Positions 60,448 to 64,000 of a stretch of DNA of 64,000 bases are shown piece by piece. A program made the position numbers and the translations under genes. The notes under the pieces are model-generated. The model worked only from the letters and a program-made list of their open reading frames with translations, made no database searches and was not told the origin of the DNA. The DNA is taken from the NCBI RefSeq assembly GCF_001657475.1, contig NZ_LXEY01000011.1, positions 62,001-126,000 on the forward strand. The letters run 5' to 3'. Numbering within the stretch: position 1 is the stretch's first letter; each line of letters starts with the position of its first letter. This DNA is from Enteractinococcus helveticum. Lineage in GTDB: Bacteria > Actinomycetota > Actinomycetes > Actinomycetales > Micrococcaceae.

Positions 60448-60476
60448 TTTTGTCGAAGAGATCGGTCACTTCTGTT

Positions 60477-61388
60477 ATGAAGTATACGAATGAGCCCGTG
60501 ATCGTCACCAAGAACCTCACCATGCGTTACGGGGACAAAGAGGTCTTAGACGGCATTGACCTCACAATTCACCGTCAAGAAGTGGTGGCCGTGTTAGGAC
60601 CGAACGGGGCCGGCAAGAGCACCACAATCGAGATACTGGAAGGTTTCCGAACCCGGTCGGGTGGCGACGTCGTGGTCCTGGGGGCTGATCCCGCCAAGGC
60701 TGATGAGTACTGGCGCTCTCAGGTGGGCGTTGTACTGCAAAACTCTAGCGACCATGGCAAATGGCGTCCCCAACAACTATTGTCCCATATGGCCGACTAT
60801 TACCGTCCGTATGTGGATCCATGGCCGGTCGACAAACTGCTCCAGTTAGTTGGCCTCACTGACCAGGCGCAACAAAAAATCAGTACTTTGTCGGGCGGTC
60901 AGCGCCGCCGACTGGATGTTGCTCTGGGCGTCATCGGACGGCCTCCCCTGCTCTTCCTAGACGAACCAACAACCGGCTTCGATCCTAAAGCGCGTCGAGA
61001 TTTTCACGACCTGATCCATCGGCTCAGTGATCTGGAAAACACGACCATTGTGCTGACCACCCACGATCTCGCCGAGGCTGAGAAACTTGCTGGACGCATC
61101 ATTATTCTGGCCGGGGGTCGCATCATTGCTGATGGCTCGCCCTTGGAGCTGATGCATAAGGTGTCCAGTACAGCAGAAGTGCGATGGACACAAGACGGGC
61201 AGCTCCGTATCCACGCTAGCCAAGACGCCACAGAGTTTGTTCGTAGGCTACTCGCCGAGCACAGCACCGGCATTACGGACTTGGAAATTCAGCGCAACAC
61301 ACTGGAAGATGCTTATCTATCCATAGTGGAACAATTTGAAGACGGCCAAACTGTGGAAACCACAAAATTTGAGGAGCACACGTTATGA
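60477..61388 (+). CDS. ABC-2 exporter ATP-binding protein
   Basis: ATPase similar to drug/antibiotic exporters of the DrrA/CcmA type. Walker A GPNGAGKSTTIEIL (about residue 40), Q-loop VGVVLQNSSDH, signature TLSGGQRRRLDVAL (about 138), Walker B LLFLDEPTTGFDP and H-loop VLTTHDLAEAEK. About 303 aa from ATG 60477; a TTG at 60450 is also in frame. The C-terminal regulatory domain (about 215-300) is present. The permease gene overlaps its stop by 4 bp. Confidence 0.9.
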   Translation: MKYTNEPVIVTKNLTMRYGDKEVLDGIDLTIHRQEVVAVLGPNGAGKSTTIEILEGFRTRSGGDVVVLGADPAKADEYWRSQVGVVLQNSSDHGKWRPQQLLSHMADYYRPYVDPWPVDKLLQLVGLTDQAQQKISTLSGGQRRRLDVALGVIGRPPLLFLDEPTTGFDPKARRDFHDLIHRLSDLENTTIVLTTHDLAEAEKLAGRIIILAGGRIIADGSPLELMHKVSSTAEVRWTQDGQLRIHASQDATEFVRRLLAEHSTGITDLEIQRNTLEDAYLSIVEQFEDGQTVETTKFEEHTL

Positions 61389-62293
61389 CGAGCAAACACA
61401 CCTCACCGCCAGGGCCGTCGCGCATTCAAACACCAACAACGAATCCGACGATCAACGCTTACCGAACCGGATTGCGCCGCGGATTGGTATCCACCAAAAT
61501 TCAGCTCACCTCACTGGGCGATGTGCTGGGAACGGTGATCCCGTTACTCCTCTTTGTCGTTGTCCTGTTATTTCTCAACCGCGTTGATGTCGATGGTGCG
61601 GTCGTGTCGTTGGGTTCAATGAGTATTCCGGGACTGCTGGCCATGAGCGTCATGTTCAGCGCGGTCATGGGTATTGCCGGGGTGTTGTCAATCGACCGAA
61701 CCAATGGCACCTTATTGCGTAGCAAATCCGTTCCCGGGGGCACCACGGGATACTTGGTAGGCGAGATCACGGCTATTGCGATCGTCACCGTGATTTCCAC
61801 ACTTGTCCTGCTGGTCACCGGGTTGATCCTCTTTGATGGTCTGGTCTTTTCCACCCCGGGTCGGTGGGTCCTATTCACTATCGTTATGCTATTGGGATTG
61901 GTGGCAATGTTAGCCATCGGCGCGGTGATCGGCGCTTTGGTGAACAGCCCAAAGAACATGGGCTTGGTCATGCTGCCGGTTATGGGGCTGATTAGTATTT
62001 CCGGTATTTTCTACCCATTGGTGGCACTGCCGGTATGGTTGCAGACCATCGCGCAGGCTTTCCCGTTGTATTGGTTTGGTCTAGGCCTACGCGCCTCGCT
62101 CTTGCCCGATTCTATGGCTTCTGTAGAGGTAGCCGAGTCCTGGCGTCTGGAATGGGTATTTATCGCGCTGGTAATCTGGGCGGTCGTGGCCATGGTGCTG
62201 GCGCCAAAATTGTTAAGTAGGATGGCGCGGCGGGAATCCGGGTCGACACTGGCTGCCCGACGTCGTGATATTCAACAAGACTGGGGAGTGTAA
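61385..62293 (+). CDS. ABC-2 exporter permease
   Basis: 302-aa membrane subunit with six hydrophobic segments: about residues 45-65, 80-105, 122-150, 157-182, 190-215 and 258-278. The ABC2 signature region SPKNMGLVMLPVMGLISISG is present before the fifth segment. The N-terminal 30 residues are Thr/Pro-rich and cytosolic. Together with the ATPase it makes a two-component exporter of unknown substrate. Confidence 0.85.
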   Translation: MTSKHTSPPGPSRIQTPTTNPTINAYRTGLRRGLVSTKIQLTSLGDVLGTVIPLLLFVVVLLFLNRVDVDGAVVSLGSMSIPGLLAMSVMFSAVMGIAGVLSIDRTNGTLLRSKSVPGGTTGYLVGEITAIAIVTVISTLVLLVTGLILFDGLVFSTPGRWVLFTIVMLLGLVAMLAIGAVIGALVNSPKNMGLVMLPVMGLISISGIFYPLVALPVWLQTIAQAFPLYWFGLGLRASLLPDSMASVEVAESWRLEWVFIALVIWAVVAMVLAPKLLSRMARRESGSTLAARRRDIQQDWGV

Positions 62294-62299
62294 GCCCCA

Positions 62300-62521
62300 G
62301 TGTCTGAAGTCGTTCATAATCGGATTGCGATGCTGCGTGCCGAACGTCAAGTGTCGCGTAGGGACCTGGCACAAGCACTGGGGGTGCATTATCAGACCAT
62401 CGGCTACCTGGAACGCGGCGAATATAGCCCTAGCCTGTATTTGGCGCTGAAGATTGCCGCCTATTTCGATGTGCCGATGGAGGTCATCTTCTCGACCGAT
62501 CCGTTTCCACGGATCTTCTGA
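62300..62521 (+). CDS. Short XRE-type HTH regulator
   Basis: 73-aa single-domain repressor: NRIAMLRAERQVSRRDLAQA, then LGVHYQTIGYLERGEYSPSL (helix-turn-helix, about residues 6-45) and the ending EVIFSTDPF common to YozG-like regulators, which typically sit beside membrane-protein genes. GTG start 6 bp after the permease stop, so it is part of the exporter operon. A terminator follows. Confidence 0.85.
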   Translation: MSEVVHNRIAMLRAERQVSRRDLAQALGVHYQTIGYLERGEYSPSLYLALKIAAYFDVPMEVIFSTDPFPRIF

Positions 62522-62591
62522 GCCACTCACCGAATATCTATCCTGTAGCGTCAGCAAAAATACTGGCATAATTGCGCCGATCGTTAAGGAA

Positions 62592-62620
62592 AAGCCCGGA
62601 ATCTCAACGATTCCGGGCTT
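62592..62620 (+). terminator. Terminator of the exporter operon
   Basis: 12-bp stem AAGCCCGGAATC / GATTCCGGGCTT, 5-base loop, followed by ATCTTG. Confidence 0.88.
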
Positions 62621-62716
62621 ATCTTGTGGAGATGCCGGGAATATCTTTCAACTACTGCGTGACTAGGCATTATGAAACAACAATGAACCGAAAGGTTAGT
62701 AGTTGTCTAAAATAAT

Positions 62717-62746
62717 GCCCCAGCGTGACGGCAAATCACCTGGGGC
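62717..62746. repeat. Long bulged hairpin
   Basis: GCCCCAG-c-GTGA (62717-62728) pairs with TCAC-CTGGGGC (62736-62746): an 11-bp stem with one bulged base. It lacks a T-run and sits in non-coding sequence about 95 bp after the previous hairpin. Confidence 0.7.
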
Positions 62747-62811
62747 GCGGAACACGGTTCAACAGCCCGCGTTCATTGCCTACATCATACCAATGTGAAG
62801 CAATTGTTACA

Positions 62812-62843
62812 GGCCCGTTGAGCACAGTGCTCCGGGCCTTTTC
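62812..62843 (+). terminator. Terminator-like hairpin in the gene-free region
   Basis: GGCCCG-tt-GAGCAC pairs with GTGCTC-CGGGCC (12 bp, 2-base bulge, single-base loop), followed by TTTTC. No plus-strand coding gene lies immediately before it, so it may end a short RNA or be part of a structured element. Confidence 0.65.
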
Positions 62844-62887
62844 TTTCACCGTTCGGGCCGAAACTTAACGGGCCGGTTATATCCCTT

Positions 62888-62972
62888 GGGAACCGTCACG
62901 CACCGGGTGACGGGGAACCACCTGGCCGGGTGGAACCACCACCATATTTTGAGACACTCCGAAAAATCGGAG
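62888..62972. repeat. Hairpin array with GGAACC direct repeats
   Basis: Three stem-loops in 80 bp: CCGTCAC/GTGACGG (62893-62899, 62907-62913), CCACC/GGTGG (62918-62922, 62929-62933) and CTCCGA/TCGGAG (62957-62962, 62967-62972). GGGAACC recurs at 62888 and 62913, and GGAACCACC at 62914 and 62932. The regular alternation of GGAACC and stems looks designed for protein or RNA recognition. Confidence 0.6.
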
Positions 62973-63110
62973 GGTCTACTAGGCGTGGGCTAATGCAGCA
63001 GAAGCGGGGACGGGGGCGGCGGGTTTTTTGGGGATGGGGTGACAACAACACAGCTCCCCTCCGGGGATCCTTATCCGCACCAACCCGACCACCATAGAAA
63101 GCCAGGGCAC

Positions 63111-63974: not shown

Positions 63975-64000
63975 CCCTTACCCGCCTGGTCGGCGCCGTG

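Follow-up and report, generated by a model that had tools for sequence, protein, structure and literature searches.

What is the function of a gene-free stretch crowded with hairpins near the right end of a 64,000-nt piece of the Enteractinococcus helveticum genome (here named the window)? An earlier note, made from the letters alone, had described six hairpins and GGAACC repeats at this place, had considered only the first hairpin as explained by a gene, and had offered a transfer or replication origin, an attachment region or a structured RNA gene as possible readings, with the border of a mobile element close by. Sequence reading and a repeat scan recovered all six hairpins and the repeats, within a few bases of where the note had placed them, together with four hairpins that it had missed, H2, H3, H5 and D (Table 1).

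Table 1. Features at the right end of the window (positions are those of the window).
Feature	Position	Strand	Description
Hairpin 1	62589-62623		Inverted repeat; intrinsic terminator of the upstream operon (+) and of ssrA (-); host DNA just outside the element
attL core	62625-62642	-	Last 18 nt of ssrA (tmRNA), duplicated at attR; identical to the ssrA 3' end in L016
Putative integrase arm-type site	62660-62670	+	TGACTAGGCAT; inferred from similar sites between integrase and attR (two in L017, one in L016)
H1	62717-62746	+	Bulged hairpin of 11 bp (7+4) at the inner edge of the element; found in six elements, which share a single bulged C; on the minus strand a terminator-like T run comes after it in several copies
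H2	62750-62774	+	Compensatory changes GAAC/GTTC to GAGC/GCTC
H3	62781-62797	+	CCA kept in the loop; stem rewritten yet paired between Yaniella and Kocuria elements
H4	62811-62846	+	Terminator-like hairpin (62811-62839) with UU bulge and T tail
H5	62849-62871	+	Stem CCGTT/AACGG here and GTCCT/AGGAC in Kocuria; recognised by eye in most of the remaining copies
Hairpin A	62893-62913	+	Flanked by GGGAACC/GGGGAACC; both-side changes in 7/7 pairs (20-copy alignment)
Hairpin B	62918-62933	+	Both-side changes in 5/5 pairs (20-copy alignment)
Hairpin C	62952-62977	+	AGAC...GTCT; 90.8% of cells paired, 4 pairs with both-side changes
Most conserved stretch	62978-63043	+	Contains the G-rich core GGGGACGGGGGCGGCGGGTTTTTTGGGGATGGGG (63006-63039); 20-copy alignment
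Hairpin D	63054-63068	+	Inverted repeat recurring at the same place in several copies; by eye
Small ORF, 69 aa	63111-63320	+	First gene inside the element end; clear homologue after the module in G004
Small ORF, 86 aa	63346-63606	+	From the ORF list
Small ORF, 102 aa	63666-63974	+	From the ORF list

Hairpin 1 does terminate the upstream operon, as had been claimed, but it is also found beside intact ssrA at the empty site of genome G003 and in the sister genome G001; it is the convergent terminator of ssrA (tmRNA) and is not accounted for by the upstream operon alone. In both of these genomes, two fluC-like genes are followed directly by this terminator, without the ABC transporter and HTH operon that separates genes and terminator in the window (60450-62521). 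Since the fluC-like genes of G003 and G001 run directly into the terminator, the locus of this operon may be an insertion hot spot.

The 18 bp of the attL core recur on another contig of the same assembly (C22, locus L016) beside an intact tmRNA gene detected by ARAGORN, next to smpB, and on the other side of this att site are genes for a tyrosine integrase (PF00589, 1e-20) and for a D5-type primase-helicase. A single contig of G001 carries the full arrangement, namely terminator, att, end region, 9.7 kb element, integrase, att, ssrA and smpB, with a pair of 17-bp att repeats 9.7 kb apart, and in G003 the terminator lies directly beside ssrA, which is the empty site. Because of these two arrangements, we conclude that the 3' end of ssrA carries an integrated element, that the hairpin cluster covers the left end of this element, and that position 62643 is a mobile-element border. 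The assembly is fragmented, and the window, which stops at 64000, adjoins the end of its contig (C11, at the equivalent of 64439); by analogy with G001, we infer that the two contigs, C11 and C22, carry opposite ends of a single element. The att duplication, together with the integrase at the far end, confirms the border suspected in the earlier note, and its attachment region corresponds to the attL core. Elements were also seen to carry a terminator hairpin of their own next to attR (L016:9704-9758 and L017:9729-9783), which would stand in for the ssrA terminator that integration moves away.

From the gene content of related elements, we read the stretch as the attL-side (left) end of an integrative phage satellite in the 3' end of ssrA. 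Where att repeats could be mapped, in four elements, the size was 9.25-9.73 kb. The window's own element, split over two contigs, contains only an integrase and a primase among recognised genes. A second element in the same genome (C3, L015, 956-10222), located at a tRNA 3' end with a 15-bp att repeat, carries an HK97-type capsid protein along with an integrase and a primase-like ORF; in the G004 element the integrase is of the serine type, and a scaffold-like protein accompanies the primase-like ORF and the capsid protein. AAA_25 proteins accompany HNH and TerS-like genes in the elements of Kocuria dechangensis (G309) and G073, portal and capsid genes end at the module in G162, and the element of G474, from another family, lies at ssrA with an integrase and an AAA_25-like protein. 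We call these elements phage satellites because capsid, portal, HNH and TerS-like genes occur in small integrative elements: att repeats and integrases indicate site-specific integration, and related elements of ~9.5 kb hold capsid or packaging genes without a full phage set. Of the three small ORFs that follow the hairpins in the window, the first (69 aa) gave no Pfam or PHROG match, and the other two have no assigned function. In the G001 element, we also observed a 946-aa ORF (L017:1539-4379, minus strand) that resembles, by eye, a DNA methyltransferase-type defence gene. A search for helper phages through the TerL family PF03354 in 13 genomes gave no matches; this family is unusable to locate helpers, since a TerL-like ORF recognised by eye in L210 also escaped the search.

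The hairpins H1-H5, A, B and C, the G-rich core and hairpin D form a module of about 350 nt (62717-63068), within the first ~430 bp of the element, with GGGAACC/GGGGAACC/GGAACC repeats in the linkers around hairpins A and B. Three covariance models, run against Micrococcaceae, its order and class and the family of G474, yielded 20 credible copies, of which 19 are from Micrococcaceae and one is from G474, in another family of the order; the class sample added none, and weaker matches (E > 0.002), mostly inside apparent coding genes, were discarded. In 16 genomes, a pattern for the G-rich core was found only at these element ends, and a reversed control pattern in none. Two core copies without hairpins, at L205:17870-17930 (minus strand) and L206:8945-8998 (plus strand), lie 1 and 8 kb from full modules; they may be remnants, or may indicate that the core functions on its own. 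We also considered a prophage (L198) as a phage copy of the module and rejected it, as the module lies in a neighbouring decayed element with a truncated integrase beside tRNA-Arg, and none was found in the prophage sequence fetched.

The stems are conserved in homologues, and with the integrase at the far end of the element this goes against two refuting conditions of the earlier note, absence of mobile genes and lack of stem conservation. In an alignment of these copies plus two partial rows, 89% of the cells of helices A, B and C were paired and 101 cells showed double changes, compared with 33.4+-4.9 in shuffled alignments (0/500 reaching the observed count) and 9-24 when the partners were slid. 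Among six hand-aligned elements, 323/334 cells were paired, with double changes at 37/61 pairs, compared with 263+-7 paired cells when arms were permuted among the sequences; both alignments lean towards the structure. The UU bulge of H4 and the single C of H1 persist among homologues, and H1-H4 are less universal than H5-D. Folding energy gave a smaller contribution: as RNA, positions 62713-63000 fold better than 200/200 shuffles on either strand (z -3.8 and -3.75), and over 20 homologues the H5-C part by itself was only slightly better than shuffled (mean z -1.0). The compensatory change in homologues, above folding energy, is the main evidence that the hairpins are not due to chance. Plain folding of both strands did not separate plus from minus. 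In the alignment, which was fitted to the model, the plus strand has 31 G-U pairs against 7 A-C mismatches, and since G-U far exceeds A-C, the plus strand is the likelier folded one.

Compensatory changes together with a preference of G-U over A-C are what a structured RNA would leave, and we consider it somewhat better than an even chance that the module at the attL end is a structured non-coding RNA of the plus strand, which makes the structured RNA gene the best of the options raised earlier. The folded strand would then be RNA rather than single-stranded DNA, and the module may be transcribed, perhaps upon excision of the element. Its RNA could serve the satellite cycle via a partner in the host or helper phage; such a partner is proposed because none of the element genes was seen with every copy of the module. 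A broader and more tentative suggestion, to which we give a little less than even weight, is that these ornate RNAs of ~350 nt are a class marking the att end of Micrococcaceae satellites and acting in trans on helper or host during induction. Against RNA, a rightward transcript would be halted halfway by H4, the G-rich stretch, which is the best conserved, need not be RNA, and the energy z-scores of homologues are modest. A search for a sigma-70-like promoter for the module found none.

A packaging site, with the G-rich core as the cos or pac of the satellite and the hairpins helping terminase binding, is unlikely but the strongest of the rivals, as the module occurs in satellites with packaging or capsid genes and its core is GC-rich, the most conserved part and cohesive-end-like, with a weak likeness to cohesive ends in the window's copy (z up to 2.8). 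However, when genome right ends of Arthrobacter phage MrSmee and of three small Mycolicibacterium aichiense phages were compared with the satellites, they matched the gap between HNH and TerS in L151, where a cos would be expected. They also matched L016:17150-17260, on the contig with the right part of the window's element, and showed no more than weak likeness to the modules. The HNH-TerS gaps of two other elements showed no match to phage genome ends. Within the right part of the window's element, L016:17175-17205 is a cos-like site resembling the right genome ends of the small M. aichiense phages, found by scanning and only slightly above shuffles, and is therefore a lead. In addition, covarying stems are unexpected for double-stranded DNA, and none of the patterns and queries tried recovered the module from IMG/VR or from phage records. 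Matches of a G-rich pattern in IMG/VR were apparently due to chance, and narrower patterns had no match; no relative was retrieved there with a capsid query, blastn against phages and plasmids gave nothing convincing, and a match at the end of the Pam4 record was explained by a circular record opened at TerL.

Identical covariation would be left by single-stranded DNA, in which the stems could act as priming or initiation sites of a replication origin, and the elements indeed carry primase or helicase genes. We regard this as improbable: the module is common to elements with unrelated replication proteins (D5 primase, AAA_25 and another helicase), and an origin tied to one initiator is disfavoured because different replication proteins accompany it. 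Still less probable is a leader RNA, attenuator or riboswitch, of the downstream small ORFs. Related small ORFs lie 3' on the same strand in the window and in G004, but the ORFs downstream vary from element to element, and the L151 module is set apart by a strong inverted repeat from the next ORF, which starts ~60 bases later. As for the transfer origin of the earlier note, stem-loops at an element end would suit the oriT of an element that is conjugative or mobilisable. We regard this reading as very improbable: the ORFs searched in the complete ~9.5-kb elements included no recognisable relaxase or conjugation gene, and the elements have the gene content of phage satellites. We favour a structured non-coding RNA because the phage ends match elsewhere, the replication proteins differ, no relaxase was recognised and the L151 inverted repeat separates module from ORF.

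In summary, these data indicate a family of actinobacterial phage satellites with a common covarying non-coding module that is retained through exchanges of integrase, replication and capsid genes. The module can serve as a marker for finding such satellites and, the elements being small and dissectable, as a test case for the role of large structured RNAs associated with phages.

Rfam 15 gave no match in the hairpin region, nor at the modules of seven elements, with nothing relevant even at E 5 and no hit at the gathering cut-offs, including those of GOLLD and ROOL. No account of the module appears in the available portions of open papers on satellites of actinobacteria (PMC10690885) and on large RNAs of phages (PMC12286853), and it is most likely a structured non-coding RNA not described before. 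By sequence, the closest packaged relatives found are small M. aichiense phages (JSForest2, WillG and Alyssa1; OR387110-OR387121; 10.9-11.1 kb), which are like the satellites in size, integrase, TerS-like terminase, scaffold and capsid (identity to satellite proteins 39% for TerS and 26% for capsid) but differ in gene order and in their Mycolicibacterium hosts; the module model did not match JSForest2 or WillG. Cos-type SaPIs (SaPIbov5) and capsid-forming PICIs are likewise integrated satellites bringing packaging functions and capsid-related proteins, either Ccm or a full head set, and differ in hosts, integration and gene sets, with no comparable end module mentioned in the available text (PMC5052747, PMC10690885). 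The Streptomyces satellites MulchRoom and MiniFlayer are likewise actinobacterial with capsid genes of their own, but have direct terminal repeats, virulent helpers and, for MulchRoom, ~15 kb, and the portion of the source at hand does not mention the module (PMC10690885). A satellite-encoded non-coding transcript is known from P4, PhiR73 and PLE; as far as the accessible text goes, these RNAs are complementary to gene leaders, with an antisense role cited for P4 and suggested for PLE (PMC7567579). Here transcription is a proposal, and antisense pairing of the module with its own element did not exceed chance. GOLLD and ROOL are also large, ornate, covarying and phage-associated, and their function is unknown according to the part of the source available (PMC12286853). 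The module differs from both in its length of about 350 nt, its chain of simple hairpins, its place at a satellite att end and its lack of an Rfam match, and it resembles GOLLD, as described in the same part of that source, in combining a universal 3' part with a variable 5' part (PMC12286853).
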